Assembly (NCBI RefSeq): GCF_035917575.1
Contig: NZ_CP109090.1
Location: 6,572,001-6,636,000 of the forward strand
Length of the DNA: 64,000 bases
Direction: 5' to 3'
Source of the DNA: Streptomyces sp. NBC_01788
GTDB lineage: Bacteria; Actinomycetota; Actinomycetes; Streptomycetales; Streptomycetaceae
Part shown: piece after piece, positions 12,919 to 61,482 of the stretch
Position numbering within the stretch: position 1 is the stretch's first letter
Layout: the number at the start of each line of letters is the position of its first letter
Position numbers and translations under genes: made by a program
Notes under the pieces: model-generated
The model's database searches: none
The model's input: the letters and a program-made list of their open reading frames with translations, nothing else
Told to the model about the DNA's origin: nothing

Positions 12919-13356
12919 ATGGGAGAAGTGCGGGATGCCCCCGGCGGGGGCGCCCCGGCGGTCGTCCGCGTCACGGCGATCGCGAGCCTGACACCCCTGG
13001 AGGAGCTGCACGACGAGCCCTTCCTGGTGGACTCCCGCGGCCAGCACTCGATGTGCGCCCGCTGGGCCGCCGAACACGGCTACGTGATCGCGCGGGAACT
13101 GCTCGTCCGGGGGCTGCGCGCCGACCACAGTGCCCTGTGGGAGGGAGTGCGCCCCGGCATGGACCTGTTCGTCGCGCCCAGCCGGCGGGTGCTGGAACGG
13201 GCGCTGTCCTCCGTCGAGGAGTTCACCGACGAGTGCGCACGGCGCGGGGTCCGGGTGGAGACGGTGGGCCAGGCCGAGCCCTCGTACGACGCCCAGATGA
13301 AGGCCTGCGTGCACCGCCGCCTTTCCATGCCGACCGCCGGCTACGACGGCCGCTGA
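12919..13356 (+). CDS. Orphan protein resembling a serine-recombinase N-terminal domain
   Basis: 145 residues. No named family is certain. The pattern QHSMCARWAAEHGYVIAREL, then GMDLFVAPSRRVLERAL, then DECARRGVRVETV follows the resolvase/invertase N-terminal fold (Q...C..YA...GY, then DVVVV..R..R, then GV). A serine (residue 23) could occupy the catalytic position, but the preceding arginine is missing and there is no C-terminal DNA-binding domain. Catalytic activity is therefore doubtful. Start ATG 12919 with GAGGTGAGG upstream; an earlier GTG at 12904 is possible. Divergent from the metallo-hydrolase at 12832. Confidence 0.55.
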   Translation: MGEVRDAPGGGAPAVVRVTAIASLTPLEELHDEPFLVDSRGQHSMCARWAAEHGYVIARELLVRGLRADHSALWEGVRPGMDLFVAPSRRVLERALSSVEEFTDECARRGVRVETVGQAEPSYDAQMKACVHRRLSMPTAGYDGR

Positions 13357-13435
13357 CCCCCTGACTCGCTGCCCCCCTGACTCACCCCCTCCGCCCCCAC
13401 CGCTTTGTGGGTGTTACCGCAGGTCACGGCGATTT

Positions 13436-41842: not shown

Positions 41843-42015
41843 CCGGCGCGCACCACCTGGCACCACCTCGCACCACCGGTACGCCCCGCACCACCCGCAC
41901 ACAGCACGGCACCACCACCGGTACGTCCCGAGTACACCAGCCCGCCCCGCGTACACCAGCCACGCGTACGTCAGCCCTGCCCTGAGACCGGCCGTATCCG
42001 CCGAGGGGAACCACC

Positions 42016-44615: not shown

Positions 44616-44647
44616 CCCCGCGGCGTACCGCCTCCACCACCTAGCCC
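44595..44647. repeat. 29-bp tandem duplication at the permease 3' end
   Basis: ACCGCCTCCACCACCTAGCCC occurs at 44598-44618 and again at 44627-44647, offset 29 bp, with flanking GCG also repeated. The first copy includes the permease stop codon. Confidence 0.8.
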
Positions 44648-44694
44648 AGCCGAGCCGCCCGCTCCGTACGGCCCTCACCGGAAAGGCCATCGCC

Positions 44695-45814: not shown

Positions 45815-47035
45815 ATGGGCCTGAAGGGACAGTCGGAGCAGGCCGAGAGCGAGCCCGCGGCCGGGAAGCCTCCGCTGCGTGTCGGCATGGTCGGCTACGC
45901 CTTCATGGGCGCCGCCCACTCCCAGGGCTGGCGCACCGTGGGCCGCGTCTTCGACCTGCCGCACCGGCCCGTACTGGCCGTCGTCGCCGGGCGTGACGGG
46001 GCGGCCGTGCGGGGCGCGGCCGCCCGGCTCGGCTGGGCCGACACCGAGACCGACTGGCGCGCTCTGATCGCCCGCGACGACGTCGACCTCATCGACATCT
46101 GCACGCCGGGCGACAGCCATGCGGAGATCGCCGTGGCCGCCCTGGAGGCGGGCAAGCACGTGCTGTGCGAGAAACCCCTCGCCAACTCGGTCGAGGAGGC
46201 GCGGGCGATGACCGAGGCGGCCGAGCGGGCGCGGGCCCGCGGCCAGGTCGCCATGGTCGGCTTCAACTACCGGCGGCTGCCCGCGACCGCCCTGGCCCGC
46301 CGCATGGTCGCCGAGGGCCGCCTCGGCACCCTGCGGCACGTACGCGTCAGTTACCTCCAGGACTGGCTCGTCGACCCCGAGTTCCCGCTGACCTGGCGGC
46401 TGCGCAAGGACGCGGCGGGCTCCGGCGCCCTCGGCGACCTGGGCGCCCACATCGTCGACCTCGCCCAGTACCTCGTGGGCGAGGCGATCACCGGGGTGTC
46501 CGCGGTCACCGAGACGTTCGTCCGGCAGCGCCCGCTGCCGGCCGGGGCGGCGGCCGGGCTCAGCGGCGTCGGCGGCCGCGGCCTGGGGGAGGTCACCGTC
46601 GACGACGCGGCCCTGTTCACCGCCCGGTTCGGCTCGGGCGCGCTCGCCTCCTTCGAGGCGACCCGGTTCGCCTCCGGCCGCAAGAACGCGCTGCGCATCG
46701 AGCTCAACGGGTCCCACGGCTCGCTAGCGTTCGACCTGGAACGGCTCAACGAGCTCTCGTACCACGACCACACCGAACCCGGGGTGAGCGCCGGCTTCCG
46801 GCGGATCCTCGTCACCGAACCCGACCACCCCTATCTCGCGGCCTGGTGGCCGCCGGGCCACGGCCTCGGCTACGAGCACAGCTTCGTCCACCAGGCCCGC
46901 GACCTGGTGCTCGCGATCGCCGCGGGCACCGCGCCCGAACCGTCCTTCGCCGACGGGCTCCAGGTCCAGCGCGTCCTGGCCGCCGTCGAGGAGAGCGCGG
47001 CGAAGAATTCCCTCTACACGCCCGTCCCGGTCTAG
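45815..47035 (+). CDS. Gfo/Idh/MocA family oxidoreductase
   Basis: 406 residues. N-terminal Rossmann fold (RVGMVGYAFMGAAHSQGW), DVDLIDICTPGDSHAEIA and the EKPLANSVEEA motif carrying the catalytic lysine; C-terminal domain with GALGDLGAHIVDLAQYLVG, including the active-site histidine. Oxidises or epimerises a sugar or cyclitol with NAD(P). Likely the first step in metabolism of the imported compound. ATG 45815, twelve bases before the isomerase gene at its other end, so co-transcribed. Confidence 0.94.
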   Translation: MGLKGQSEQAESEPAAGKPPLRVGMVGYAFMGAAHSQGWRTVGRVFDLPHRPVLAVVAGRDGAAVRGAAARLGWADTETDWRALIARDDVDLIDICTPGDSHAEIAVAALEAGKHVLCEKPLANSVEEARAMTEAAERARARGQVAMVGFNYRRLPATALARRMVAEGRLGTLRHVRVSYLQDWLVDPEFPLTWRLRKDAAGSGALGDLGAHIVDLAQYLVGEAITGVSAVTETFVRQRPLPAGAAAGLSGVGGRGLGEVTVDDAALFTARFGSGALASFEATRFASGRKNALRIELNGSHGSLAFDLERLNELSYHDHTEPGVSAGFRRILVTEPDHPYLAAWWPPGHGLGYEHSFVHQARDLVLAIAAGTAPEPSFADGLQVQRVLAAVEESAAKNSLYTPVPV

Positions 47036-47047: not shown

Positions 47048-48049
47048 ATGCCACGTTCGTTCACCCTGTTCACCGGCCAGTGGGCCGACCTCCCGCTGGA
47101 GGAGGTCTGCCGGCTGGCCCGTGACTTCGGCTACGACGGACTCGAACTCGCCTGCTGGGGAGACCACTTCGAGGTCGACAAGGCGCTGGCCGACCCCGCC
47201 TATCTCGACGGGCGGCGCGCGCTGCTCGACAAGTACGGCCTCAAGTGCTGGGCGATCTCCAACCACCTGGTCGGCCAGGGGGTCTGCGACCACCCGATCG
47301 ACGAGCGCCACCGCGGCATCCTGCCGGCCCGCATCTGGGGCGACGGGGAGCCCGAAGGCGTACGGCAGCGGGCCGCCGCGGAGTTGAAGGACACGGCGCG
47401 GGCGGCGGCCGCGTTCGGCGTCGACACCGTCATCGGCTTCACCGGCTCCTCGATCTGGCACCTGGTCGCCATGTTCCCGCCCGTGCCGCCGGGCATGATC
47501 GAACGCGGCTACCAGGACTTCGCCGAGCGCTGGAACCCGATCCTCGACGTGTTCGACGCCGAGGGCGTCCGCTTCGCGCACGAGGTGCACCCCGGCGAGA
47601 TCGCGTACGACTACTGGACCACCCGGCAGGCCCTGGACGCGGTGGACAACCGACCCGCGTTCGGGCTGAACTTCGACCCGAGCCACTTCGTCTGGCAGGA
47701 CCTCGACCCCGTCGGCTTCCTGTGGGACTTCCGGGACCGGATCTACCACGTGGACTGCAAGGAGGCCCGCAAGCGCCTCGACGGGCGCAACGGCCGCCTC
47801 GGCTCCCACCTGCCGTGGGGCGATCCCCGGCGCGGCTGGGACTTCGTCTCCGCCGGGCACGGTGACGTGCCGTGGGAGGACGTCTTCCGGATGCTGCGGT
47901 CCATCGACTACACCGGCCCCGTGTCGGTGGAGTGGGAGGACGCCGGCATGGACCGGCTCCAGGGCGCCCCCGAGGCGCTGCGGCGCCTCAAGGCGTTCGA
48001 CTTCGACCCGCCGAGCGCGTCGTTCGACGCGGCCTTCGGCAGGGAGTAG
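47048..48049 (+). CDS. Sugar phosphate isomerase/epimerase (TIM barrel)
   Basis: 333 residues of the AP-endonuclease-2 (xylose-isomerase-like) TIM-barrel family. Metal ligands are expected in [13 protein letters not shown] (Glu), [12 protein letters not shown] (Asp, His), YHVDCKEAR and [11 protein letters not shown] (Glu). Acts with the oxidoreductase on a keto- or inositol-type sugar (inference). Ends directly before a hairpin at 48050-48089. Confidence 0.93.
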
Positions 48050-48396: not shown

Positions 48397-51300
48397 GTGC
48401 ACAGGAAACGTCCCAGATTCCGCAAGGCACTCGCTCTTCTCACCGGCTCACTCCTCGCGGGCAGCTCGCTCGCGCTCGCCGCGCCGCCGGCGAGCGCCCA
48501 CGGCCCCGGTGCCGACAGACCGGCCGCGGCGGCCGCCGAGGACTTCCAGCAGGTCACCCTCGCCAAGGGCGCCCCCGAGGTCGGCGAGCCGATGTCGCTG
48601 GCCGTGCTCCCGGACCGCAGCGTCCTGCACACCTCCCGCGACGGCACGCTGCGGCTGACCGACGCTCAGGGCAACACGTCCGTGGCCGGCAAGCTGGCCG
48701 TCTACGACCACGACGAGGAGGGGCTCCAGGGCATCGGGATCGACCCCGACTTCGCCGAGAACCGCTTCGTCTACCTCTACTACGCGCCGCCGCTGAACAC
48801 CCCGCCCGGCGACGCTCCCGAGAACGGCACCGCCGCCGACTTCGCCCCCTTCGACGGCGTCAACCGGCTCTCCCGCTTCGTGCTGAAGCAGGACGGCACG
48901 CTGGACGTGTCCAGCGAGAAGAACGTCCTCGAGGTCAAGACGTCCCGCGGCATGTGCTGCCACGTCGGCGGCGACATCGACTTCGACAAGGACGGCAACC
49001 TCTACCTGTCGACCGGCGACGACTCCAACCCCTTCTCGTCCGACGGCTACACGCCCATCGACGAGCGGTCGACCCGGAACCCGGCGTTCGACGCCCAGCG
49101 CACCTCGGGCAACACCAACGACCTGCGGGGCAAGATCCTGCGGATCAAGGTCAAGCCGGACGGCTCCTACGACATCCCCGAGGGCAACCTCTTCGCCCCG
49201 GGCACCGCGAAGACCCGTCCCGAGATCTACGCGATGGGCTTCCGCAACCCGTTCCGGTTCAGCATCGACAAGCCCACCGGCACCATCTACATCGGCGAGT
49301 ACGGGCCGGACGCCGGCGCCGCGAACCCCAACCGCGGTCCCTCCGGGATGGTCGAGTTCAACCGCGTGACCAAGCCCGGCAACTACGGCTGGCCCTACTG
49401 CGTCGGCAAGAACGAGGCGTACATCAAGTACGACTTCGCCACCAAGCAGTCCGGTGCGGCCTTCGACTGCTCGGCGCCGAAGAACACCTCCCCGAACAAC
49501 ACCGGCCTGGTCGACCTCCCGCCGGCCCAGCCGGCCTGGATCGACTACGACGGCGGCTCCATCCCCGAGTTCGGCAACGGCTCCGAGTCCCCGATGGGCG
49601 GCCCGGTCTACCGCTACGACCCCGACCTGAACTCGCCCGCCAAGTTCCCCGAGGCCTACGACGGGGACTTCTTCGCCGGTGAGTTCGGCCGCCGGTGGAT
49701 CAAGCGGATCGAGCAGGACGACGACGGCACCGTCAAGTCCATCAACCCCTTCCCCTGGTCCGGCACCCAGGTGATGGACATGGCCTTCGGCCCGGACGGC
49801 GCCCTCTACGTCCTGGACTACGGCCTGTCCTGGTTCGGCGGCGACGAGAACTCCGCGCTGTACCGCATCGAGAACGTCACCAACGGCCATGCGCCGACCG
49901 TGACCGCCACGTCGGACAGGACGTCGGGCAAGGCGCCCCTGAAGGTGTCCTTCTCCGCGACCGGCAAGGACGCCGACGGCGACGCGCTCACCTACGGCTG
50001 GGACTTCGGTGACGGGACCACCGGCACCGGTCAGTCGCCCCAGCACACGTACCGCACCAACGGCACGTACACCGCCACCGTCACCGTGACGGACCCGACC
50101 GGCTACACCGCGACCGCCAACGTCCACGTGGTCGTCGGCAACACCGCGCCCACGGTGACCTTCCAGACGCCGGCCGACGGCACGCTGTTCCAGTTCGGTG
50201 ACACCATCCCGTTCAAGGTGAAGGTCACCGACCCCGAGGACAAGAAGATCGACTGCTCCAAGGTCACCGTCCGCTACATCCTCGGCCACGACAGCCACGG
50301 CCACCCGATCACCTCGGCCACCGGCTGCGAGGGCACCATCTCCGTGCCTGCCGACGGCGAGCACGACCCCAACGCCAACATATTCGGCGTCCTGGACGCC
50401 GAGTACACCGACAACGGCGGCGGCGGTCAGGAGGCGCTGACCACCCACGCCCAGGTCGTGCTCCAGCCCCGCCACCGGCAGGCCGAGCACTTCAGCAGCC
50501 AGAGCGGCATCCGCACCTACGACAAGACCGAGGCGCACGGCGGCAGGACCGTCGGCGACATCGACAACGGTGACTGGATCTCGTTCAAGCCGTACAACCT
50601 GAGCGGCGCCCAGACGCTCACCGCGCGGGTGTCCTCCGGCGGCGCCGGCGGGTACCTGGAGGTCCGCACCGGAGGTCCCAACGGCACTCTGCACGGCTCC
50701 GGGGTCGTCCCGGTGACCGGCGGCTGGGAGACCTTCCAGGACATCGACATCCCGCTCAGCAAGCTGCCGAAGAAGACCACCGAGCTGTACCTGGTCTTCA
50801 AGGGCGGTGACGGAGCGCTCTTCGACGTCGACGACTTCATGATCTCCGACAAGAAGCCCGCGAAGAACGACAAGCGCGTCCTGGTCTTCTCCAAGACGGC
50901 CGGCTTCCGGCACGACTCCATCGAGACCGGCGTGCGGGCCCTGAAGGACCTCGGCGGGCAGAGCGGCATCACCGTCGACTCCACGGAGGAGGCGCAGCAG
51001 TTCACCACCGCCAACCTCGCCCGCTACGACGCCGTCGTCTTCCTGTCCACCACCGGCACCGTGCTGAACGCCGACCAGAAGAAGGCGTTCGAGAAGTACA
51101 TCGCCGGCGGCGGCGGTTACATGGGCATCCACGCCGCGGCCGACACCGAGTACGAGTGGCCGTTCTACGGCGGCCTGGTCGGCGCGTACTTCGACTCGCA
51201 TCCGCAGATCCAGAAGGCCACCGTCCTGGTGCCCCAGCACGACCACCCGGCCACCAAGGGTCTCGACGACGCGTGGGACCGCACGGACGAGTGGTACAAC

Positions 51301-51552
51301 TACCGATCCAACCCGCGTGACCACGCCCGGGTGCTGGCCACCCTGGACGAGAGCACGTACCAGGGCGGCAAGATGAACGGCGACCACCCGATCGCCTGGT
51401 GCCAGGCCTACCAGGGCGGGCGCTCCTTCTACACCGGCCTCGGCCACACCAAGGAGTCCTACGCCGAGGACGGCTTCCGCAGTCATCTGCTCGGTGGCCT
51501 GAAGTACGTCACCGGCCAGGAGAAGGCGGACTGCAAGCCGCGCAAGGCCTGA
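48397..51552 (+). CDS. Secreted GSDH / PKD / CBM6 / ThuA multidomain protein
   Basis: 1051 residues. Signal peptide HRKRPRFRKALALLTGSLL, cleaved near ASAHGPG. Modules: a glucose/sorbosone-dehydrogenase-like propeller (GIGIDPDFAENRFVYLYY; SRGMCCHVGGDIDFD; YAMGFRNPFRFSIDKPTG), a PKD domain (LTYGWDFGDGTTGTGQSPQH), a CBM6-like beta-sandwich (QAEHFSSQSGIRTYD; NGDWISFKPYNLSG), and a C-terminal ThuA domain (VLVFSKTAGFRHDSIETG; GGGGYMGIHAAADTEYEW). ThuA proteins are linked to trehalose/maltose and other sugar metabolism; the whole suggests extracellular sugar oxidation. GTG 48397 with GGAGGG; longer frames run back into the isomerase gene. Confidence 0.92.
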   Translation: MHRKRPRFRKALALLTGSLLAGSSLALAAPPASAHGPGADRPAAAAAEDFQQVTLAKGAPEVGEPMSLAVLPDRSVLHTSRDGTLRLTDAQGNTSVAGKLAVYDHDEEGLQGIGIDPDFAENRFVYLYYAPPLNTPPGDAPENGTAADFAPFDGVNRLSRFVLKQDGTLDVSSEKNVLEVKTSRGMCCHVGGDIDFDKDGNLYLSTGDDSNPFSSDGYTPIDERSTRNPAFDAQRTSGNTNDLRGKILRIKVKPDGSYDIPEGNLFAPGTAKTRPEIYAMGFRNPFRFSIDKPTGTIYIGEYGPDAGAANPNRGPSGMVEFNRVTKPGNYGWPYCVGKNEAYIKYDFATKQSGAAFDCSAPKNTSPNNTGLVDLPPAQPAWIDYDGGSIPEFGNGSESPMGGPVYRYDPDLNSPAKFPEAYDGDFFAGEFGRRWIKRIEQDDDGTVKSINPFPWSGTQVMDMAFGPDGALYVLDYGLSWFGGDENSALYRIENVTNGHAPTVTATSDRTSGKAPLKVSFSATGKDADGDALTYGWDFGDGTTGTGQSPQHTYRTNGTYTATVTVTDPTGYTATANVHVVVGNTAPTVTFQTPADGTLFQFGDTIPFKVKVTDPEDKKIDCSKVTVRYILGHDSHGHPITSATGCEGTISVPADGEHDPNANIFGVLDAEYTDNGGGGQEALTTHAQVVLQPRHRQAEHFSSQSGIRTYDKTEAHGGRTVGDIDNGDWISFKPYNLSGAQTLTARVSSGGAGGYLEVRTGGPNGTLHGSGVVPVTGGWETFQDIDIPLSKLPKKTTELYLVFKGGDGALFDVDDFMISDKKPAKNDKRVLVFSKTAGFRHDSIETGVRALKDLGGQSGITVDSTEEAQQFTTANLARYDAVVFLSTTGTVLNADQKKAFEKYIAGGGGYMGIHAAADTEYEWPFYGGLVGAYFDSHPQIQKATVLVPQHDHPATKGLDDAWDRTDEWYNYRSNPRDHARVLATLDESTYQGGKMNGDHPIAWCQAYQGGRSFYTGLGHTKESYAEDGFRSHLLGGLKYVTGQEKADCKPRKA

Positions 51553-51659
51553 CCGCCGCCGCCCGCCGAGGGCGCCCGAATCGGCGGCGGGCGAGAGACG
51601 CCGGACTCCCGCCCGCCGCCCCACTCACCGGCCGGGGCCGCAGGCCCCTCGACGGGGGC

Positions 51660-52640
51660 CTACGGCCCCGCCCCCCGGCACCTGGCTCGACCCGGGGCCT
51701 GGCTCGGCCCGGTGACCCGGTCCAGGCCGAGTCCCGGCCCAGGTCCAGGTCCGGTCCGGGCCCGGCCCAGGTCCAGGTCCGGTCCGGGCCCAGGTCCAGG
51801 TCCGGGCCTGGCCCAGGTCCAGGTCCAGGTCCGGTCCGGGCCCGGCCCAGGAACAGGTCTGATCCGGTCCAGGCCCGGCCAAGGCCCTACCCGGCCAACG
51901 CCCGGTGACCCGGCCCAGGCTGAGTCCCGGACCAGGCCAAGGGCCGACGATCCGGACCAGGCCAAGGGCCGGCGACCCGGACCAGGCCAAGGGCCGGCGA
52001 CCCGGACCAGGCCAAGGGCCGGCGATCCGGACCAGGCCAAGGGCCGGCGACCCGGGCCGGACCGAGTCCCGGACCGGACCGAGTCCCGGACCGGACCGAA
52101 TCCCGGACCGGACCGAGTCCCGGACCAGGCCGGGTCCTGGCTCCGGCCAAGGCCCCGGTCCCGGCCAAGGCCCCGGTCCCGGCCAAGGCCCGGTCCAGGC
52201 CGAGTCCCGGTCCAGGCCGAGTCCCGGCTCCGGCCGTGGCCGGACTGGACGGGGACGTGGTGCCGGTGCCGGTGCCGGATCCCGATTCCGGTCTCGGTTC
52301 CGGCCCGGGCTTGGTTTCGGCTCAGGCCGGGGCCTTGCCCGGCCGGGGGCCGGCTCTGGTCCGGGCCTCGGTCCGGTCCGGATCCGGGTTCTGGTGCCGG
52401 CCTGGGGCCCGGGTTCCGGATCCGGGCTCGGTTTGACCCCGGCTGGGGATCTGGCGCCGGCCCTGGGCTCCGGTTCCCGGTCCGGCCTCGGGTCCGGTCC
52501 GGCCTCGGGTCCGGTCCGGCCTCGGGCTCGGCCCGTGGGGCCTTGCTCGGCCGGAAATCCCGGTCCGGTCCGGCCTCGGTTCCGGATCTGGGACCGGTTC
52601 CGGTTCCGGTTCTGGCTCCGGTTCCGGTCCGGTGCCTGCG
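51660..52640. repeat. Complex minisatellite, about 1 kb
   Basis: Successive GC-rich tandem families: CCAGGT/CCGGTC hexamer-like arrays (about 51720-51870), five 25-bp units GGACCAGGCCAAGGGCCGGC+GACCC (51929-52053), five 17-bp units GGACCGGACCGAGTCCC (52054-52138), GGCCAAGGCCCCGGTCCC units (to about 52190), and CCGGTTCCGG-type arrays (about 52560-52640). Every frame stays open and gives Pro/Gly/Arg/Ser low-complexity peptide, so no gene is called in the 1163-bp gap 51553-52715. It separates the ThuA gene from the ebo-type operon. Confidence 0.9.
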
Positions 52641-52715
52641 TCGGTGGCTTTCGGAGGCCGCCTGCGCTCGATCACTCGTCCGGCATCCGGTTCGCGTACG
52701 ACAAGGAGGCTGCCC

Positions 52716-53840
52716 ATGTCCGCCGAACCTTCCGTTTCCCCCTCCCGCACCGGCGTCTGGCTGATCGGTGCGCGGGGCTCCGTCGCCACCACCGCTGTCA
52801 CCGGATGCGCCGCCGTCTCCGCCGGGCTGCATCCCACCGCCGGCCTCGTCACCGAGACGGAGCCCTTCGCCGCGAGCGGCCTGCCCGCCCTGTCCTCCCT
52901 CGTCTTCGGCGGGCACGACACCATGGACTGCCCGCTGCCCAAACGCGCCGAGACCCTCGCCGACGGCGGCGTCCTGCCGCACGGCCTGCCCTCCGCCGTC
53001 CACAGTGAACTGGCCGCCGCGGACGGCGAGATCAGACCCGGCGGCCCGCTCCCCGGAGACACCCGGAGCGATGAAGCCCTCATCGACGCCCTCGCCGCCG
53101 ACATCCGCGACTTCACCCGCCGAGGCGCCCTCGCCCGCACCGTCGTCGTCAACGTCGCCTCCACCGAACCCGCCCCGGACGGCACCGCCCTGCCCGCCAG
53201 CTCGCTGTACGCGGCGGCCGCCCTGCGCGCGGGCTGCCCGTACGTCAACTTCACGCCGTCGACCGGGCTGCACCACCCCGCGCTCGCCGCCGAGGCCCGT
53301 GCCTCCGCCCTGCCCTACGCGGGCCGCGACGGCAAGACCGGGCAGACCCTGCTGCGATCCGTGCTCGGCCCGATGTTCGCGCAGCGCGCGCTGCGCGTGC
53401 TGGCCTGGTCCGGAACGAACCTCCTCGGCGGCGGCGACGGCGCCGCCCTCGCCGACCCCGCCGCCGCCGCGGCCAAGAACTCCGGCAAGGAACGGGTCCT
53501 CGCGGACACCCTGGGCACGGTCCCCGAGGGAGAGGTGCACATCGACGACGTGCCCGCCCTCGGCGACTGGAAGACCGCCTGGGACCACATCGCCTTCGAG
53601 GGCTTCCTCGGCTCCCGGATGACCCTCCAGACCACCTGGCAGGGATGCGACTCGGCGCTCGCCGCGCCCCTGGTCCTCGACCTGGCCCGGCTGCTGGCCC
53701 GCGCCCACGAACGCGGACTGACCGGTCCGCGCCCCGAACTCGGCTTCTACTTCAAGGATCCCGACCCGGGCGCCCCCGCCGCGCTGGGGGAGCAGTACGC
53801 CGCGCTCCTGGACTTCGGCCGACGGCTGGGGGACCAGTGA
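52716..53840 (+). CDS. Inositol-3-phosphate synthase family protein
   Basis: 374 residues. The N-terminal Rossmann motif GVWLIGARGSVATTAVTG, AGRDGKTGQTLLRSVL and NLLGGGDGAALADP, followed by KNSGKERVL, match the myo-inositol-1-phosphate-synthase family, which cyclises glucose-6-phosphate with catalytic NAD. Primary Ino1 of actinomycetes is a different, well-conserved subgroup; this one resembles copies found next to a UbiA-family gene in secondary-metabolite loci. It may form another cyclitol phosphate. ATG 52716 with AAGGAGG. First gene of an eight-gene operon; its stop overlaps the next start (TGATG). Confidence 0.88.
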   Translation: MSAEPSVSPSRTGVWLIGARGSVATTAVTGCAAVSAGLHPTAGLVTETEPFAASGLPALSSLVFGGHDTMDCPLPKRAETLADGGVLPHGLPSAVHSELAAADGEIRPGGPLPGDTRSDEALIDALAADIRDFTRRGALARTVVVNVASTEPAPDGTALPASSLYAAAALRAGCPYVNFTPSTGLHHPALAAEARASALPYAGRDGKTGQTLLRSVLGPMFAQRALRVLAWSGTNLLGGGDGAALADPAAAAAKNSGKERVLADTLGTVPEGEVHIDDVPALGDWKTAWDHIAFEGFLGSRMTLQTTWQGCDSALAAPLVLDLARLLARAHERGLTGPRPELGFYFKDPDPGAPAALGEQYAALLDFGRRLGDQ

Positions 53841-55021
53841 TGACCCGCCACGGTCTGGTGGCCATCGCCCTGGCGGTGACCGTCGCCGCCGTCGTCGGAG
53901 CGCGCGGGTCCTCGGCCCGTGGCCGCCCGCGCCCCCGGCAGGCGGCCGACCCGTCGGAGGGACCATCGCGGCCCGGGCGGGCGGACGACGATCCCGTCGT
54001 GTCCGACGACCCGGCAGCCACCCCCACAGCCCCCCGTCCCGCCGCGGACTCCGTCCCCGCACCCACCCGCCCCCCGCACCCATCCCAGCGCCCCGCCCTC
54101 GGCACCCCCGCCGACTGGGTCGAACTGCTGCGGCTGCCCGCCCTGTTCACCGTCCCCGGTGACGCCCTCGCCGGGGCCGCGGCGGCGGGCCGCGCCCCCG
54201 GGGCCCGTACGCTCCTCGCCATCGGTTCGTCCCTGTGCCTCTACCAGGCGGGCATGGCGCTCAACGACTGGGCGGACCGCGCCGAGGACGCCGCCGAGCG
54301 CCCGCACCGGCCGCTCCCGTCCGGGCGGATCGCCCCCGGAGCCGCGCTCGCCGCGGCCGGCGCGCTCACCGCCCTGGGCCTCGCGCTCGCCGCCCGCGCA
54401 GGCCGGCCCGCGCTCACCGTCGCCGTACCGCTCGCCGTCACGGTCTGGGCGTACGACCTCGGACTGAAGCGGAACTGGGCGGGGCCGCCGGCGATGGCGG
54501 CGGCCCGGAGCCTCGACCTCGTACTCGGTGCCGCAGCGAGCGGCGGCCGGGTCCGCGACGCCGTACCGTCCGCCGCCGCCCTCGGTGTCCACACCCTGGC
54601 CGTCACGGCCGTCTCCCGCCGCGAGACCCAGGGCGGTTCCGCCGCCGTACCGCTCGCGGCCCTCGCGGTCACCTCCGGCGTCGCGTACGCACTGGCCCCG
54701 CCCGCCGTGGCCCTCCGGCTCCCGGTGGACCGAGGTGGAGCAGCCCCCCTCGGTCCGCCGGGCCTCACCCCCGCACCGGGCGGTGCGCTCCGTGCGGCCC
54801 TCGCGCTCGGCTACGCCGCCACCGTCGCCCGCCCCCTCGCCCACGCCGTCCTCAACCCCTCCCCGCCGCTCACCCAGCGGGCCGTCGGCGGCGGCATCCG
54901 CGCCATGATCCCGCTCCAGGCCGCGCTGTCCGCCCGCGCGGGCGCACCGGTCACCGCCCTGTGCACGGCCGCCCTGGCGCCTCTGGCCCGAAGGTTCGCG
55001 AGGAAGGTGAGCGTCACGTGA
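53840..55021 (+). CDS. UbiA-family prenyltransferase (EboC / SCO3242 type)
   Basis: 393 residues. After a Pro/Ala-rich N-terminal region with one hydrophobic segment, about eight membrane helices follow. GMALNDWADRAEDAAERPHR holds the NDxxDxxxD prenyl-diphosphate site, and RPLPSGRI is the usual continuation. UbiA enzymes move prenyl groups onto aromatic or other acceptors in the membrane. Adjacent to an inositol-phosphate-synthase-like gene, as in the pair I recall from a lipopeptide cluster of S. coelicolor. ATG 53840 overlaps the previous stop; its own stop overlaps the next start (GTGA). Confidence 0.85.
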   Translation: MTRHGLVAIALAVTVAAVVGARGSSARGRPRPRQAADPSEGPSRPGRADDDPVVSDDPAATPTAPRPAADSVPAPTRPPHPSQRPALGTPADWVELLRLPALFTVPGDALAGAAAAGRAPGARTLLAIGSSLCLYQAGMALNDWADRAEDAAERPHRPLPSGRIAPGAALAAAGALTALGLALAARAGRPALTVAVPLAVTVWAYDLGLKRNWAGPPAMAAARSLDLVLGAAASGGRVRDAVPSAAALGVHTLAVTAVSRRETQGGSAAVPLAALAVTSGVAYALAPPAVALRLPVDRGGAAPLGPPGLTPAPGGALRAALALGYAATVARPLAHAVLNPSPPLTQRAVGGGIRAMIPLQAALSARAGAPVTALCTAALAPLARRFARKVSVT

Positions 55022-55941
55022 GCCCCGGCCCCGCCACGGACCTCCGCTTCGGTTACGGCACCAACGGCCTCGCGGACCTGCGCCTCGACGACGCCCTCGG
55101 CCTGCTCGCCGACCTCGGCTACGACGGCGTCGGACTGACCCTCGACCACATGCACCTCGACCCGCTCGCCCCCGACCTGGCCGCCCGCACCCGCCGGGTC
55201 GCGCACCGGCTGGACGCGCTCGGCCTGGGCGTGACGGTGGAGACGGGCGCCCGCTATGTGCTCGACCCCCGCCGCAAGCACGGCCCCTCCCTCCTGGACG
55301 AGGACCCGGAGGACCGCGCCCGGCGCGCCGACCTGCTGCTGCGGGCCGTACGGGTGGCCGCCGGCCTCGGCGCGCACGCCGTGCACTGCTTCAGCGGCAT
55401 CACCCCGCCCGGCACCGACCGGGACACGGCGTGGAAACGTTTCGCCGAGTCCCTGGTTCCCGTCCTGGAGGCCGCCGGCGCCTCCGGTGTCCACCTCGCC
55501 GTGGAGCCCGAGCCCGGTCATCTCCTCGCCACCCTCGCCGACTTCCACCAGCTGCGCCGCACCCTCGGCGACCCCGACAACCTGGGCCTCACCCTCGACA
55601 TCGGCCACTGCCAGTGCCTCGAACCCCTCCCTCCGGCCGAGTGCGTCCGTGCCGCAGCGCCGTGGCTGCGGCACGTCCAGATCGAGGACATGCGCCGCGG
55701 CGTGCACGAACACCTCCCCTTCGGGGACGGCGACATCGACTTCCCGCCCGTGCTCGCCGCGCTGGCCGCCACCGGCTACCAGGGCCTGACCGTCGTGGAA
55801 CTGCCCCGGCACTCCCACGCCGGGCCGCACTACGCCGAGCTGTCCCTGCCGTACCTCCGCCGCGCGGCCACCGCCGCCACACGTAGGGGCGAGTGTCCGG
55901 CCCCCGAGCATCAGGTCACCCCAGAAGGGAGCACCCGATGA
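55018..55941 (+). CDS. Sugar phosphate isomerase/epimerase (TIM barrel)
   Basis: 307 residues of the AP-endonuclease-2 type. FGYGTNGLADLRLDDALGLL begins the barrel; Glu in VHLAVEPEPGHLLA, Asp/His in LGLTLDIGHCQC, His in WLRHVQIEDMRRGVHEH and Glu in LTVVELPRHSHAG are likely metal ligands. GTG start at 55018 overlaps the UbiA stop. One of two TIM barrels of this type in the operon, this one cytoplasmic (no signal peptide). Confidence 0.9.
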   Translation: MSPGPATDLRFGYGTNGLADLRLDDALGLLADLGYDGVGLTLDHMHLDPLAPDLAARTRRVAHRLDALGLGVTVETGARYVLDPRRKHGPSLLDEDPEDRARRADLLLRAVRVAAGLGAHAVHCFSGITPPGTDRDTAWKRFAESLVPVLEAAGASGVHLAVEPEPGHLLATLADFHQLRRTLGDPDNLGLTLDIGHCQCLEPLPPAECVRAAAPWLRHVQIEDMRRGVHEHLPFGDGDIDFPPVLAALAATGYQGLTVVELPRHSHAGPHYAELSLPYLRRAATAATRRGECPAPEHQVTPEGSTR

Positions 55942-56648
55942 CCCACCCGCACGACATCGGCTCCGGCACCGCGGGCACCCCCACGGCCGGTACCGCCCCC
56001 GGCCCGGCCCCGGCGGACGAGTTGCGTGCCCGTACGGACGCCGGGCTCGCCCCGGCCGCACGGGCCTGGCTCGGCCAGGCGCTCGACGAGGCCGCCACCC
56101 ACCGCGGCACCCACGGGCCGATCTCCGTGTGGGAGCTGCGCCTGGCCGAGGCCGGCCGCCGCTGCGGCCCCGCCCACGCCGACGCCGCCCGCGTCCTCAT
56201 CCTGCACGCGGCCCGCGCCGACCTGGACGCCCTCACCCGGGTCTACCGCCAGGGCACCGCCGACGAACGCCGCGCCGTCCTTCGCGCCCTGCCCCGCCTC
56301 GTGCCCGGCCCCGACGCCCTCCCGCTCGTCGAGGACGCGCTGCGCACCAACGACACCCGGCTGCTCGCCGCCGCCGTCGGCCCGTACGCCGCCCGGCACC
56401 TGGCGCCGCACGCATGGCGGCACGCCGTGCTGAAGTGCCTGTTCACCGGCGTGTCCGTGGACAGCGTCGCCGACCTGGGCCGCCGCGCCCGCGGCGACGC
56501 CGAACTCGCCCGCATGCTCGGCGACTACGCCGCCGAACGCACCGCGGCGGGCCGCCAGGTCCCCGAGGACCTGCACCGCGTCCTGACCCTGACCGAGCCC
56601 GACACCGCGCCGCACGGCCAGGTCGACCCCCACGGCAAGGAGTCCTGA
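55938..56648 (+). CDS. eboA: EboA family protein
   Basis: 236 residues, mostly helical: VLILHAARADLDALTRVYRQG, RAVLRALPRLVPGPDALPL and HAWRHAVLKCLFTGVSVDSV are typical of EboA, a HEAT-like protein found only in ebo clusters. Ebo proteins support transport of a secondary-metabolite precursor to the periplasm in cyanobacteria (scytonemin); the role of EboA is not known. ATG 55938 with AGAAGGGAG and an ATGA overlap with the TIM-barrel gene; its own stop overlaps the TatD gene start. Confidence 0.88.
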   Translation: MTHPHDIGSGTAGTPTAGTAPGPAPADELRARTDAGLAPAARAWLGQALDEAATHRGTHGPISVWELRLAEAGRRCGPAHADAARVLILHAARADLDALTRVYRQGTADERRAVLRALPRLVPGPDALPLVEDALRTNDTRLLAAAVGPYAARHLAPHAWRHAVLKCLFTGVSVDSVADLGRRARGDAELARMLGDYAAERTAAGRQVPEDLHRVLTLTEPDTAPHGQVDPHGKES

Positions 56649-57496
56649 TGCGCATCTTCGATCCCCACATCCACATGACGTCCAGGACCACCGACGACTA
56701 CGAGGCCATGCACGCCGCCGGCGTCCGCGCCCTCGTGGAACCGGCCTTCTGGCTCGGCCAGCCCCGCACCTCGGCTGCCTCCTTCCTCGACTACTTCGAC
56801 TCCCTGATCGGCTGGGAACCCTTCCGCGCCGCCCAGTACGGCATCGCCCACCACTGCACCATCGCCCTGAACCCCAAGGAGGCCAACGACCCGCGCTGCC
56901 TGCCCGTCCTAGACGAACTGCCCCGCTACCTCGTCAAGGACCAGGTCGTCGCCGTGGGCGAGATCGGCTACGACTCGATGACGCCCGAGGAGGACACCGC
57001 CCTCACCACGCAGTTGCAGCTCGCCGCCGACCACGGGCTGCCCGCCCTCGTCCACACCCCGCACCGCGACAAGCTCGCCGGGCTGCGCCGCACCCTGGAC
57101 GTCGTGCGGGAGTCGGCGCTGCCCATGGACCGCGTCCTGGTCGACCACCTCAACGAGACCACCGTCAAGGAGGCCAAGGACAGCGGCTGCTGGCTCGGCT
57201 TCTCCGTCTACCCCGACACCAAGATGGACGAGGAGCGGATGGTCGCGATCCTGCGCGCCCACGGCCCCGAACGGGTTCTCGTCAACTCCGCCGCAGACTG
57301 GGGCAGAAGCGACCCCCTCAAGACCCGCAAGGTGGGCGACCTGATGCTCACCGAGGGCTTCACCGAGGACGAGGTGGACCGCGTACTGTGGCGCAACCCC
57401 GTCGAGTTCTACGGCCTCAGCGGCCGGCTGAGCCTCGACGTCGCCGCGCCCGGCGCCACCCACGAGGGCAACAGCATCCTGCGCGGCGGGGAGTGA
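56648..57496 (+). CDS. TatD-family metal-dependent hydrolase (EboB-like)
   Basis: 282 residues. Metal ligands: FDPHIHMTSR (HxH), VAVGEIGYDSM (Glu), ALVHTPHRDK (His), VLVDHLNETT (His) and LVNSAADWGRSD (Asp). An amidohydrolase-type TIM barrel of the TatD group. In ebo clusters the gene next to eboA encodes such a hydrolase, so EboB is the likely equivalent. ATG 56648 overlaps the eboA stop (TGATG); three bases separate it from eboE. Confidence 0.88.
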   Translation: MRIFDPHIHMTSRTTDDYEAMHAAGVRALVEPAFWLGQPRTSAASFLDYFDSLIGWEPFRAAQYGIAHHCTIALNPKEANDPRCLPVLDELPRYLVKDQVVAVGEIGYDSMTPEEDTALTTQLQLAADHGLPALVHTPHRDKLAGLRRTLDVVRESALPMDRVLVDHLNETTVKEAKDSGCWLGFSVYPDTKMDEERMVAILRAHGPERVLVNSAADWGRSDPLKTRKVGDLMLTEGFTEDEVDRVLWRNPVEFYGLSGRLSLDVAAPGATHEGNSILRGGE

Positions 57497-57499
57497 GCG

Positions 57500-58669
57500 A
57501 TGCGCTTCCGGCACCCCGACGGCTCCACCGTCCACCTCGCCTACTGCACCAACGTCCACCCCGCCGAGACCCTCGACGGCGTCGTGGCCCAACTGCGCGA
57601 CCACTGCGAGCCCGTACGCCGCCGCCTGGGCCGCGACCGCCTCGGCATCGGCCTGTGGCTCGCCCGGGACGCCGCCCGCACCCTCGACACCGACCCGTCC
57701 GCGCTGCGCGCCCTGCGCGCCGAACTCGACGGGCACGGCCTCGAGGTGGTCACCCTCAACGGCTTCCCCTACCAGGGCTTCGGCGCCGAAGAGGTCAAGT
57801 ACCGTGTCTACAAGCCGGACTGGGCCGACGCCGCACGCCTCGACCACACCACCGCGCTCGCCCGCATCCTCGCCGGCCTCCTCCCGGACGACGTCAAAGA
57901 GGGCAGCATCTCCACCCTGCCGCTGGCCTGGCGCACCGCGTACGACGACACCCGCGCCGAGCAGGCCCGCACCGCACTGCGCACTCTCGCCCAACGCCTC
58001 GACGCCCTTGAGGAGTTGACGGGACGCTCCATCCGGGTGGGCCTGGAACCCGAACCGGGCTGCGTCGTCGAGACCACCCACGACGCCATCGCCCCGCTCA
58101 CCGCGATCGGCCACGAGCGCATCGGGATCTGCGTCGACACCTGCCACCTCGCCACCTCCTTCGAGGACCCGCACACCGCCCTGGACGCCCTCACCGCGGC
58201 CGGCGTCCCCGTCGTCAAGTCCCAGCTGTCCGCCGCCCTGCACGCCGAGCAGCCCCATCTGCCCGAGGTCCGCGAGGCCCTCGCCGCCTTCGACGAGCCC
58301 CGCTTCCTCCACCAGACCCGTACGGTCACCGCCGCAGGCCTGCACGGCACCGACGACCTCGGCACCGCCCTCGGCGGCGACGTCCTGCCGGACTCCGCCC
58401 CCTGGCGCGCCCACTTCCACGTCCCCCTGCACGCGGCGCCCGCCGAACCCCTCACCTCCACCCTCCCGGTCCTCAAGGCCGCCCTCACACGGCTCGTCGG
58501 CGGCCCGCGGCCGCTCACCCGCCACCTGGAGGTCGAGACCTACACCTGGCAGGCGCTCCCGCCCGAACTGCGCCCCCGCGACCGCGGCCGCCTCGCCGAC
58601 GGCATCGCCGCCGAACTCGCCCTCGCCCGCGACCTGCTGACCGACCTCGGCCTGAAGGAACTGCCATGA
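57500..58669 (+). CDS. eboE: Metabolite traffic protein EboE
   Basis: 389 residues. HLAYCTNVHPAETLDGVV, LEVVTLNGFPYQGF, VKYRVYKPDWADAARLDHT and SISTLPLAWRT are highly characteristic of EboE, a TIM-barrel protein of the xylose-isomerase-like type. VGLEPEPGCVVETTHDA and ICVDTCHLATSFEDP carry likely metal ligands. EboE is one of the core ebo proteins; its reaction is not known. Overlaps the next gene by four bases (ATGA). Confidence 0.92.
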   Translation: MRFRHPDGSTVHLAYCTNVHPAETLDGVVAQLRDHCEPVRRRLGRDRLGIGLWLARDAARTLDTDPSALRALRAELDGHGLEVVTLNGFPYQGFGAEEVKYRVYKPDWADAARLDHTTALARILAGLLPDDVKEGSISTLPLAWRTAYDDTRAEQARTALRTLAQRLDALEELTGRSIRVGLEPEPGCVVETTHDAIAPLTAIGHERIGICVDTCHLATSFEDPHTALDALTAAGVPVVKSQLSAALHAEQPHLPEVREALAAFDEPRFLHQTRTVTAAGLHGTDDLGTALGGDVLPDSAPWRAHFHVPLHAAPAEPLTSTLPVLKAALTRLVGGPRPLTRHLEVETYTWQALPPELRPRDRGRLADGIAAELALARDLLTDLGLKELP

Positions 58670-60087
58670 CCCGGCCCCAGGGACCGACACCCCTGCTCGT
58701 CCTGGACGTCGTCGGTCTCACCCCGCGCATCCTCGACCACATGCCCCACCTCAGGACGCTCGGCCAGTCGGGCTCGCGCGCCGCGCTCGGCACCGTCCTG
58801 CCCGCCGTCACCTGCGCCGCGCAATCCACCTTCCTCACCGGCACCATGCCCGCCGAGCACGGAATCGTCGGCAACGGCTGGTACTTCCGCGAACTCGGCG
58901 ACGTCCTGCTGTGGCGGCAGCACAACGGCCTCGTCGCCGGCGACAAGCTGTGGGACGCGGCCCGCCGTGCCCACCCCGGCTACACGGTCGCCAACATCTG
59001 CTGGTGGTACGCCATGGGCGCCGACACCGACATCACCGTCACCCCGCGACCCGTCTACTACGCCGACGGCCGCAAGGAGCCCGACTGCTACACCCGGCCC
59101 CCGGCCCTGCACGACGAACTCACCGAGAAACTCGGCACGTTCCCCCTGTTCCACTTCTGGGGCCCCGGCGCCGACCTCGTCTCCAGCCAGTGGATCATCG
59201 ACGCCACCCGCCACATCCTGCGCACCCGCCGACCCGACCTGGCGCTCTGCTACCTGCCCCACCTCGACTACGACCTGCAGCGCTACGGCCCCGACGACCC
59301 GCGCTCCCTGCAAGCGGCGGCCGACCTCGACGCGGCCATGGCCCCGCTCCTGGACGACGCCCGCGCCGAGGGCCGTACCGTCGTCGTGCTGTCCGAGTAC
59401 GGCATCACCCGCGCCGACCGGCCCGTCGACATCAACCGCGCCCTGCGCCGGGCCGGCCTGCTCGAAGTGCACACCCAGGACGGCATGGAGTACCTCGACC
59501 CGATGGCCTCCCGCGCCTTCGCCGTCGCCGACCACCAGATCGCCCACGTATACGTGCGCCGCCCCGAGGACCTGGACGCCACCCGGGCCGCCCTCGACGG
59601 ACTGCCCGGCATCGAGAAACTCCTCGACGACGAGGGCAAGAAGGCCCACCACCTCGACCACCCGCGCTCCGGCGAACTCGTCGCCGTCGCCGAGCCGGAC
59701 GCCTGGTTCACGTACTACTACTGGCTCGACGACGAGCGCGCGCCCGACTTCGCGCAGCTCGTCGAGATCCACCGCAAACCCGGTTACGACCCGGTCGAGC
59801 TCTTCATGGATCCGCACGACCCCTATGTGAAGGTCAAGGCCGCGACCGCCGTGGCCCGCAAGAAGCTCGGCCTGCGCTACCGCATGGCGGTCGTGCCACT
59901 CGACGCCTCACCCATCCGCGGCAGCCACGGCCGCCTGCCCGCGAGCGACGACGACGGTCCGCTCCTCCTGTGCTCCACCCCCCGCGCCGTCGGCGACCGC
60001 ATCGCGGCCACCGACGTGAAGTCCCTCCTGCTCCACCTCGCCGGTCTCGGCCACGCAGACCCCAAGCCCGAAGAGAGGCACCCGTGA
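58666..60087 (+). CDS. Alkaline-phosphatase-fold / nucleotide pyrophosphatase family protein (EboF-like)
   Basis: 473 residues. LLVLDVVGLTPRIL (metal-binding Asp), LPAVTCAAQSTFLTGTMPAEHG (nucleophile Thr/Ser and the typical PxxHG), CYLPHLDYDLQRYGPD (Asp, His) and VVVLSEYGIT (the usual SDHG Asp-His pair here Glu-Tyr) identify a type I phosphodiesterase/nucleotide pyrophosphatase fold. The SEYG change affects one metal site, so activity could be altered. In other ebo clusters such a gene is present as the last core member. No signal peptide, so it is probably cytoplasmic. Confidence 0.85.
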   Translation: MTRPQGPTPLLVLDVVGLTPRILDHMPHLRTLGQSGSRAALGTVLPAVTCAAQSTFLTGTMPAEHGIVGNGWYFRELGDVLLWRQHNGLVAGDKLWDAARRAHPGYTVANICWWYAMGADTDITVTPRPVYYADGRKEPDCYTRPPALHDELTEKLGTFPLFHFWGPGADLVSSQWIIDATRHILRTRRPDLALCYLPHLDYDLQRYGPDDPRSLQAAADLDAAMAPLLDDARAEGRTVVVLSEYGITRADRPVDINRALRRAGLLEVHTQDGMEYLDPMASRAFAVADHQIAHVYVRRPEDLDATRAALDGLPGIEKLLDDEGKKAHHLDHPRSGELVAVAEPDAWFTYYYWLDDERAPDFAQLVEIHRKPGYDPVELFMDPHDPYVKVKAATAVARKKLGLRYRMAVVPLDASPIRGSHGRLPASDDDGPLLLCSTPRAVGDRIAATDVKSLLLHLAGLGHADPKPEERHP

Positions 60088-61241
60088 ACGACATCCAAGC
60101 CACCGACCACGGCACCGACGAACAGCTGCGCCGCAGCCTGGGCATCGGCCGCCGCAGCTTCCTCAGCACCTGCACCGCCGTCGCGGCCGGGGCACTCGCC
60201 GCACCCGTCCTCGGCGCGGCCCCCGTGCTGGCGGCCCCCGCCGAGTCGAACGGCAAGGCCAAGGGCCACCTGCTCGTCCCCGAGGACAAGCGCGGCATCA
60301 TCCTCTACACCGTGCGCGACGCCACCGGCCGCGACCCGTACTCCACCAGCCTGCCCTCAGGCTTCCGCGCCGTGTTCGAGCAACTGGCCCGGTTCGGCTA
60401 CCGGCAGGTGGAGTTCGCGGGCTACGGCCAGCACGCCAACGCCCCCGGCGGCGCCAACCTGGAGAACGTCGAGGGCGCCCGGCTGCTGCGCCGCTGGCTG
60501 GACGAGTACGGGCTGCGGGCGCAGGGCAACCACGGCTTCATCCCGGGCTCCTGGCCGCTGACCACCGGTGACCTGGACACCTTCAAGAAGCACCTGGAGA
60601 TCGCCAACATCCTCGGCATGCAGCACGTGGGCACCGGCAACGACCCCACCGGCAGCAACTACAAGGCCGACTGGGACGCCGCGGCGGAGAAGTGGCACGC
60701 CCTCGGCGAGATCGCCCGCCGCGCCGGGCTCAAGCTCTACACCCACAACCACGACGCCGCCTACGGCTTCCTGCTCGACGGCGGCCCGCTCGACGCGCAG
60801 GGCCGCCCGACCCGCAGCTCCGGCATCCGCAAGCTGGAGTACTTCCTGTCCATCACCGACCCGAAGCTGATCTGGCTGGAGATGGACATCTTCTGGGCGC
60901 ACGTGGCCCAGTACAAGTTCCGCACCTACACCGACCACGACGGGGCCACCCGGCAGAACATCTTCGACCCGGCCGGGCTGGTCACCCGCCACAACAAGCG
61001 CTACCCGCTGTTCCACGCCAAGGACGGCGTCATCAACAACACCAGCGGACAGGGCTACGACATGGTCCCGTTCGGCACCGGCGTCATCGACTACACCACC
61101 TTCTTCACCCGGGTCGGCGACCCGAACTACCACCACCCGATGGTCGAGCAGGACAACGCCCCGAGCTCCACCGACCCGGCTCAGTCGCTGGAACACGCAC
61201 GGATCGGCTACCGGAACATGGCCGCGCTGCGCCGCAAGTAA
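60084..61241 (+). CDS. Tat-exported sugar phosphate isomerase/epimerase-like TIM barrel
   Basis: 385 residues. The N-terminus (GIGRRSFLSTCTAVAAGALA) has a twin-arginine signal, cleaved near LAAPAES. The mature part is an AP-endonuclease-2-like barrel: ARFGYRQVEFAGYG, AQGNHGFIPGSWP, LYTHNHDAAYGFL, WLEMDIFWAH and PLFHAKDGVIN hold the likely metal ligands. It is therefore a periplasmic or secreted isomerase, unlike the other barrels in the operon. GTG 60084 overlaps the previous stop (GTGA). Last gene; a strong terminator follows. Confidence 0.9.
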   Translation: MNDIQATDHGTDEQLRRSLGIGRRSFLSTCTAVAAGALAAPVLGAAPVLAAPAESNGKAKGHLLVPEDKRGIILYTVRDATGRDPYSTSLPSGFRAVFEQLARFGYRQVEFAGYGQHANAPGGANLENVEGARLLRRWLDEYGLRAQGNHGFIPGSWPLTTGDLDTFKKHLEIANILGMQHVGTGNDPTGSNYKADWDAAAEKWHALGEIARRAGLKLYTHNHDAAYGFLLDGGPLDAQGRPTRSSGIRKLEYFLSITDPKLIWLEMDIFWAHVAQYKFRTYTDHDGATRQNIFDPAGLVTRHNKRYPLFHAKDGVINNTSGQGYDMVPFGTGVIDYTTFFTRVGDPNYHHPMVEQDNAPSSTDPAQSLEHARIGYRNMAALRRK

Positions 61242-61250: not shown

Positions 61251-61284
61251 AGGGGCCCTCCCCGCGACCGCGGGGAGGGCCCCT
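61251..61284 (+). terminator. Terminator of the ebo-type operon
   Basis: Perfect 16-bp inverted repeat AGGGGCCCTCCCCGCG / CGCGGGGAGGGCCCCT two bases apart. Confidence 0.85.
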
Positions 61285-61381: not shown

Positions 61382-61466
61382 GTCCGGGTGGCGGAATGGC
61401 AGACGCGCTAGCTTGAGGTGCTAGTGCCCTTTATCGGGCGTGGGGGTTCAAGTCCCCCCTCGGACA
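61382..61466 (+). tRNA. tRNA-Leu (anticodon GAG)
   Basis: 85 nt with the long variable arm of a leucine tRNA. Acceptor GTCCGGG pairs with CTCGGAC (one G-U); the anticodon stem CTAGC/GCTAG encloses TTGAGGT, giving anticodon GAG (61415-61417); the T arm has GGTTCAAGTCC. Discriminator A at 61466; CCA is not encoded. A hairpin terminator follows at 61483. Confidence 0.95.
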
Positions 61467-61482
61467 CTCTCTGTAACGATGA

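Follow-up and report, generated by a model that had tools for sequence, protein, structure and literature searches.

The 64,000-nucleotide stretch of Streptomyces sp. NBC_01788 analyzed here (contig NZ_CP109090.1, positions 6,572,001–6,636,000; hereafter the window, with positions counted from its first base) contains at 52716–61241 eight genes on one strand that form an ebo-type operon, ebo being a bacterial gene set presumed to aid the passage of small molecules across the cell membrane. Judged from sequence, the ring-forming enzyme EboD is missing from this operon and an unrelated, archaeal-type cyclase of the myo-inositol-1-phosphate synthase family (MIPS) stands in its place together with ISO, a xylose-isomerase-like protein. 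This stand-in gives a concrete hint at the product of the ebo genes: it points to a cyclitol reachable by both routes. We propose, with a probability of about 50%, that MIPS-type ebo operons make a prenyl-cyclitol lipid that acts as a carrier or adaptor for small molecules. The cyclitol is supported by MIPS standing in for EboD, the lipid by a polyprenyl synthetase gene that overlaps eboF in a related locus (L119; loci bear L numbers and genomes G numbers), and the service role, which appears favored over one dedicated product, by the unrelated host clusters in which the cassette occurs, often with secreted enzymes.

Each of the eight genes has an uninterrupted reading frame at its position, and a purpose-written gene caller based on coding statistics gave the same eight starts and stops. 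Gene families were assigned by NCBIfam and Pfam models, with scores given as bits/model cut-off. The first gene (52716–53840, + strand like all the others) encodes the MIPS-like cyclase (PF07994 110.4 bits, PF01658 104.7 bits), and the third (55018–55941) encodes ISO, a TIM barrel (PF01261 154.3 bits). EboA (55938–56648) and the TIM barrel EboE (57500–58669), both recognized in the preliminary description of this DNA, exceeded the cut-offs of their models (NF035938, 161.5/50; NF035939, 431.4/250), while the stricter EboA_family subfamily model was not reached by EboA (59.6/320). The same description had equated the TatD-like and phosphatase-fold genes with EboB and EboF, which was borne out: EboB (56648–57496) was 38–57% identical to its counterparts in six ebo operons (182–337 bits; 57% to the Azospirillum protein) and has a solved relative, 3guw (109 bits), and EboF (58666–60087; PF01663 235 bits) was 57% identical to Azospirillum and 44% to Aureibacter EboF. 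Because of these identities, the core of the operon is, by sequence, truly ebo. The UbiA prenyltransferase gene (53840–55021) is the counterpart of EboC, as had been proposed, and its product has the NDxxDxxxD and YD motifs in common with EboC, but it passed the cut-off of the SCO3242 family (NF045897, 384.2/260) and not that of EboC (NF035940, 125.9/250), so that by these models it falls, within the EboC group, into the SCO3242 branch. Sequence searches for solved relatives gave none for UbiA at E 0.001, and four seemingly spurious matches for EboE at E up to 1. A 91-residue Ala/Pro-rich extension containing a hydrophobic stretch (53840–54112) precedes the family match of UbiA; it is absent from most aligned relatives, so the true start may lie further in. 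The predicted structure of EboA is confident (pLDDT 90.7) and all-helical, a putative solenoid that would suit a scaffold role. ISO and EboA were found fused in 4 loci by the purpose-written gene caller, and such fusions have been reported for actinobacteria (Yurchenko 2016, PMC5133447).

EboD was sought with a model of six EboD proteins, whose members scored 480–568 bits when left out in turn, and a record that supplied a query served as positive control (667.7 bits). The window operon has none, an absence that the preliminary description had missed, and an EboD elsewhere in its own genome was rejected as the best match there was partial and reached 148.5 bits. The best match in 29 EboE-bearing actinobacterial genomes, two of which (G049 and G490) look like one genome, was 196 bits, with none at all in G050. 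Among 140 loci with EboE, some of which share a genome, 99 had MIPS without EboD, nine EboD without MIPS, none both, and 32 neither. In this last group 17 loci end at a contig edge at most 4.1 kb before EboE, 10 belong to the P450 type (see below), and five are others (L057, L102, L109, L125, and L183). A plasmid collection contained 48 records with EboE, 16 with EboD, and 34 with a MIPS relative; the 48 EboE records comprised 29 with MIPS, 15 with EboD, four with neither, and none with both. Of 199 Streptomyces genomes, 133 combined EboE with a strong MIPS relative (at E 5.7e-36 or better), five had EboE alone, two had MIPS alone, and 59 had neither; these are related species and a Fisher value is therefore no fair probability. 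As for EboE without MIPS, G050 and G198 are about 80% complete, the operon of G150 lies at a contig end, and G014 and G068 are real exceptions. The rule that actinobacteria have no EboD had to be rejected: one of 396 actinobacterial genomes, G578, has one at E 1e-80 or better, and its Deinococcus-like EboD locus has neither MIPS nor ISO. Since the ISO query found no match in any of the nine EboD loci (9/9), ISO goes with MIPS and not with EboD. Some ebo operons without EboD have been described (Yurchenko 2016, PMC5133447), so the lack of EboD alone is no bar to ebo membership. A search of the open literature, with subscription papers and supplements outside it, found no mention of MIPS in ebo operons, and the word inositol was absent from the main text of the ebo papers searched.

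The nearest solved relative of the window MIPS was A. fulgidus Ino1 (1u1i; 198.5 bits, compared with 35.4 for M. tuberculosis Ino1), and its lysines 254, 258, 286, and 347 align with K274, K278, K306, and K367 of that enzyme. The entries 3qvw and 3qvx, whose changed letters are visible in the alignment, are presumably the K278A and K367A mutants. All 87 near-full-length MIPS relatives, the window protein included, kept the four catalytic lysines and also the equivalents of N255, D261, D225, and D332; the lysines were present in Gemmatirosa and three haloarchaea as well. The window protein combines both MIPS domains with the catalytic lysines, as expected of a myo-inositol-1-phosphate synthase. 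An ordinary cellular Ino1 was considered for the first gene and rejected, since the protein did not reach the mycothiol Ino1 equivalog TIGR03450 (31.1/638 bits) and a further PF01658 gene lies at 4.01 Mb in the same genome.

The EboE and EboF trees, each of 27 rows, separated actinobacterial from EboD-type rows with support 100/100. Both proteins of Gemmatirosa (Gemmatimonadota) fell among the EboD-type rows, and its locus carries MIPS (46%) and ISO (46%); no EboD was found on its plasmid record, which the search covered, the rest of the genome lying outside it. For this reason the ring-formers MIPS plus ISO and EboD look interchangeable. Two cyclase changes are needed on the 27-row trees, and well-supported branches force only one of them.

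A second actinobacterial arrangement, the P450-type operon (UbiA-ISO-A-B-E-F), made up one clade of the EboE tree (support 100/99). It has no adjoining MIPS, and eight of 10 such genomes had a strong MIPS relative elsewhere; that MIPS always comes to P450-type operons from another operon was rejected as a rule because G014 and G068 do not follow it. A P450 gene follows the operon in the three tested (L126, L132, and L140), and upstream 6/9 loci carry an inositol-monophosphatase-family gene along with genes for an FAD oxidoreductase and a gamma-glutamyltransferase. Seven window-type operons have no UbiA (L052, L064, L072, L086, L099, L141, and L151), the MIPS gene directly overlapping the next gene in L072, L099, and L141, and each of the seven genomes has, at another site, one or more full UbiA of the SCO3242 type, which in G049/G490, G091, and G108 is part of the P450-type operon and in G486 stands alone. 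These complementary losses can be read as two operons sharing one pathway. Counter to the pattern, L109 lost MIPS, and L102 lost MIPS, UbiA, and ISO at the locus. In L057, the EboE and EboF genes of a window-type operon have a second, P450-type EboA-B-E-F set (11513–15372) between them.

The junctions within the window operon agreed in all seven cases exactly with the row of overlapping genes described before: MIPS/UbiA 53840/53840 (overlap 1), UbiA/ISO 55021/55018 (overlap 4), ISO/EboA 55941/55938 (overlap 4), EboA/EboB 56648/56648 (overlap 1), EboB/EboE 57496/57500 (gap of three bases), EboE/EboF 58669/58666 (overlap 4), and EboF/gene 8 60087/60084 (overlap 4). The tightness is more than chance, because the core overlaps recur in relatives: the same spacing was found in 61/73 measured pairs for UbiA-ISO, 71/102 for ISO-EboA, 96/120 for EboA-EboB, 95/124 for EboB-EboE, and 103/118 for EboE-EboF. 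For MIPS-UbiA, a 4-base overlap prevailed in 30/57 measured pairs compared with the single base of the window. The 4-base overlap of EboF and gene 8 recurred in only 6/91, with 115 bases as the commonest spacing, so the conserved tight unit comprises the first seven genes, and in the window all eight are joined tightly. Gene 8 (60084–61241; PF01261 70.6 bits) encodes a xylose-isomerase-like protein with a twin-arginine translocation (Tat) signal: an RR pair lies within the first 45 residues in 91/95 relatives, and the window protein has a Tat-type RR start. The family consists of two subfamilies, 72–89% and 25–38% identical to the window protein. Its inclusion in the core was considered, with the variable spacing and the two subfamilies speaking against it, and we regard it as a conserved, loosely attached neighbor.

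The strong terminator reported at the operon end corresponds to a hairpin at 61251–61284 (+ strand; −42.6 kcal/mol, z −5.0) that no shuffled sequence matched in folding (0/200); no T run was found 3′ of it. Directly downstream lies a tRNA-Leu (GAG) gene (61382–61467), followed by a PucR-type regulator on the opposite strand, where the relative L041 has MFS, CoA-ligase, and formyl-CoA transferase genes. On the 5′ side, the operon is preceded by a gap of 1163 bases (51553–52715) full of degenerate GC-rich tandem repeats, the largest among 87 such gaps measured (median 142). Conservation of the gene order, on which the preliminary description depended, was found widely: the EboE model matched 138/199 Streptomyces genomes (135 over the cut-off), and the full eight-gene order was present in 67/128 loci by tblastn, many others being cut by contig ends. 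In 296 genomes sampled from the phylum, 14 matched (13 over the cut-off; six of the 14 were Streptomyces), and among 14 control genomes Haloferax volcanii alone matched, below the cut-off. The scan of named genomes took in the best 80 loci of a longer list, all Streptomyces; 40 stretches came from other genomes. The S. violaceoruber NRRL S-981 genome has one EboE, of type I.

The surroundings of the cassette bear on whether it serves other pathways or has a product of its own. In G118, the seven-gene MIPS-to-EboF operon lies inside a lipopeptide cluster resembling that of the calcium-dependent antibiotic (CDA), flanked by acyl-CoA oxidase, KAS III, and monooxygenase genes on one side and TauD, ABC, APH, hydrolase, and nonribosomal peptide synthetase (NRPS) genes on the other; the CDA label rests on gene content and on the listing of SCO3242 and SCO3243 as CDA genes. 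L162 has the operon between type II polyketide synthase (PKS) genes and a gene group comprising amidase, glutamine synthetase, and PurB, surroundings that we take to resemble a kinamycin-type cluster; a type II PKS cluster on a plasmid of Streptomyces sp. NBC_01244 (L183) has a lone eboE where L162 has the whole operon. NRPS genes accompany the operon in L182 and L185, in which a Tat-signal protein is encoded directly upstream of MIPS, and an RR-bearing protein occupies the same place in L146 and L135. Three Streptomyces plasmids (L161, L184, and L186; related clusters, counted as one event) have a ScyD/ScyE-family gene directly upstream and a multicopper oxidase gene downstream, and two of the three stretches also contain an aromatic prenyltransferase gene. 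Outside actinobacteria, ebo is preceded in Aureibacter and Mycetohabitans (L158, 1097–4157; L164, 4069–7087) by a ferritin-like gene of the PF12902 family and by a gene of 587 or 633 residues that gave no match; we take PF12902 to be a domain of VioB.

Two alternatives were weighed against these surroundings. As the preliminary description and Yurchenko 2016 suggested, the operon may make its own dedicated isoprenoid-cyclitol metabolite, which after secretion would be completed outside by the isomerase exported through Tat. Its self-contained set of cyclase, isomerases, and prenyltransferase would fit, as would the position of the window operon outside any NRPS/PKS cluster in the annotated part, and an isoprenoid-cyclitol product was indeed proposed for ebo (PMC5133447, section 3.7). 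But the same cassette occurs inside chemically unrelated clusters, and Nostoc ebo deletions affect a molecule made by other genes: five single deletions and the full deletion accumulate scytonemin monomer (Klicki 2018, PMC6282210). The manufacture and export of one metabolite has something like one chance in five, and the varied neighboring clusters fit a carrier or helper better. Alternatively, the product could stay in the membrane and serve as redox cofactor or electron carrier to outside enzymes of the GSDH, ScyE, and multicopper oxidase types, with no cargo to carry. Recurrent extracytoplasmic neighbors (GSDH proteins, one with a cupredoxin domain, and a multicopper oxidase) and the PQQ-dependent dehydrogenase near ebo in Salipiger suggest this, but the core contains no ring-oxidizing enzyme, and the monomer is held in the cytoplasm in the Nostoc ebo deletion strain (PMC6282210), a defect of placement and not of oxidation; we consider this rather unlikely.

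In the proposed prenyl-cyclitol carrier pathway, MIPS, as predicted from its family and active-site residues, would convert glucose 6-phosphate to an inositol phosphate, from which ISO, EboE, and EboB would form the cyclitol head group. UbiA would join this in the membrane to a prenyl chain, which the overlap of the polyprenyl synthase gene with the operon end in L119 suggests, and EboA may hold the enzymes together. The lipid would give small molecules of cytoplasmic origin access to enzymes beyond the membrane, like the scytonemin monomer in Nostoc, and EboD, thought to use sedoheptulose 7-phosphate, would be an alternative to MIPS plus ISO as a ring route. The outside partners in the window strain are likely the secreted GSDH-ThuA protein described below and the Tat-exported isomerase.

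The nucleotide pyrophosphatase/phosphodiesterase (NPP) fold of EboF is clear (pLDDT of the model 80.9, weak at 359–412), and the nucleophile Thr is invariant in an alignment of 25 actinobacterial sequences. The D-H ligand pair is replaced by E-Y in 19/19 sequences, EboD-type ones included (E244-Y245 in the window), one ligand His by Gln in all 19 aligned sequences (Leu in Halobaculum), and the first Asp of the metal site varies among the aligned sequences; the E-Y-G motif is common to the window and other ebo operons. By alignment EboF has lost part of the usual NPP/alkaline-phosphatase metal site, which warns against calling it a phosphatase and makes it a doubtful remover of the phosphate. 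Other points likewise weigh against the carrier interpretation. All enzyme functions of the MIPS-type operon are predictions. The mutual exclusion of MIPS and EboD reflects few evolutionary events, and the nine EboD loci include six that supplied EboD queries. G014 and G068 have a P450-type ebo operon and no strong MIPS relative genome-wide; G180, with a decayed operon and no full UbiA, departs from the loss pattern too. The haloarchaeal loci L190 and L191 show no EboA and reach only 20–28 bits with the EboE model. Klicki 2018 found no lipid-linked monomer in Nostoc (PMC6282210), and the one EboC enzyme that has been tested transferred farnesyl groups to quinolines in vitro (PMC9235831).

Upstream of the window operon, other genes of possible metabolic function were found, contrary to the preliminary statement that no biosynthetic genes adjoin it; relatives of the operon, moreover, lie inside antibiotic-type clusters. 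The upstream genes of the window encode a Gfo/Idh oxidoreductase (45815–47035, +; levoglucosan-dehydrogenase model 363.7/650 bits), a second xylose-isomerase-like protein (47048–48049, +; PF01261 152.1 bits), and a secreted-type protein with GSDH, PKD, CBM6, and ThuA domains (48397–51552, +), the proposed outside partner. The genes at 40661–45735 are presumably ABC and ROK genes, judged by eye from the protein starts. The genome encodes three GSDH proteins in all, that at 48397–51552 among them, and no ScyE-family protein over the cut-off. The family of the large upstream protein, its domains typed for the window member only, was present in 62/81 and the gene 8 family in 80/81 window-type loci; GSDH proteins are also encoded near the more distant loci L119, L133, and L139. 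The Ketogulonicigenium ebo locus (L163), adjoined by two genes for Gfo/Idh oxidoreductases and one for a sugar isomerase, parallels the upstream genes of the window. An operon for inositol or glycoside catabolism, or for an envelope inositol lipid, with an ebo likeness that is historical in this lineage, might be proposed because the genes on the upstream side (Gfo/Idh, isomerase, ThuA, and ABC-type) have a catabolic appearance and gene 8 resembles the sugar phosphate isomerases 3obe and 8tcd. But EboA, EboE, and EboF stay conserved and such operons are also found in antibiotic-type clusters without those catabolic genes, and we consider this improbable, the least favored of the alternatives.

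The search with MIPS matched five haloarchaeal records, three of which were examined. Plasmids of Natronococcus (L190) and Halobaculum (L191) carry together EboB (41–42%), UbiA, MIPS (44–46%), EboF (36–38%), and two ISO-like proteins (30–35%); in Halomarina, MIPS lies amid glycosyltransferase genes with no ebo genes near. The haloarchaeal UbiA is between both bacterial branches (EboC model 197/250, SCO3242 model 161/260). Genes for a TIM-barrel protein and for a cupredoxin-domain GSDH protein follow the Natronococcus set, the GSDH protein being 35% identical over 367 residues to the window protein at 48397–51552. Tentatively, and with the odds against it, ebo may be imagined as an ancient pathway shared by bacteria, plastids, and haloarchaea. 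Its product would be a membrane helper lipid of a new class, a prenylated cyclitol whose ring comes from either of two unrelated ring-formers, and it would plug into chemically unrelated antibiotic (CDA included), pigment, and sugar-oxidation systems that have to operate outside the membrane.

Compared with the ebo operon of eustigmatophyte plastids, Bacteroidetes, and cyanobacteria (PMC5133447, PMC6282210), the window operon has EboA, EboB, EboE, EboF, and a UbiA enzyme in common, differs in having MIPS and ISO instead of EboD and a UbiA of the SCO3242 branch, and adds the adjoining Tat-signal gene 8 and the secreted GSDH-type protein. A cyclitol-headed lipid carrier was already proposed in the work that calls itself the first description of ebo function (Klicki 2018, PMC6282210). 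The window MIPS and A. fulgidus Ino1 (1u1i) belong to one family with the same four catalytic lysines, the former being embedded in an ebo operon. The haloarchaeal EboB-ISO-UbiA-ISO-MIPS-EboF sets contain the same enzyme families and the EboF E-Y motif, with a GSDH gene nearby in L190; neither EboA nor EboD was found in them, and their likeness to EboE is weak. As in scytonemin producers, where ScyE accompanies ebo, a ScyD/ScyE-family gene lies directly upstream of the MIPS-type operon on the three Streptomyces plasmids, but the annotations of these plasmids list no scytonemin genes beyond that family. Another known setting is the CDA cluster of S. coelicolor, to which SCO3242 and SCO3243 are assigned (PMC3610822); papers on these genes gave no function for SCO3236–SCO3244. 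The NCBIfam UbiA family is named after SCO3242, and the G118 operon sits in a CDA-like cluster. Set against this cluster, known here through the gene listing and G118, the window operon belongs to another EboE clade and has no adjoining NRPS; the cassette in the CDA-like cluster makes the ebo question addressable in model streptomycetes, with the antibiotic as the readout of export.

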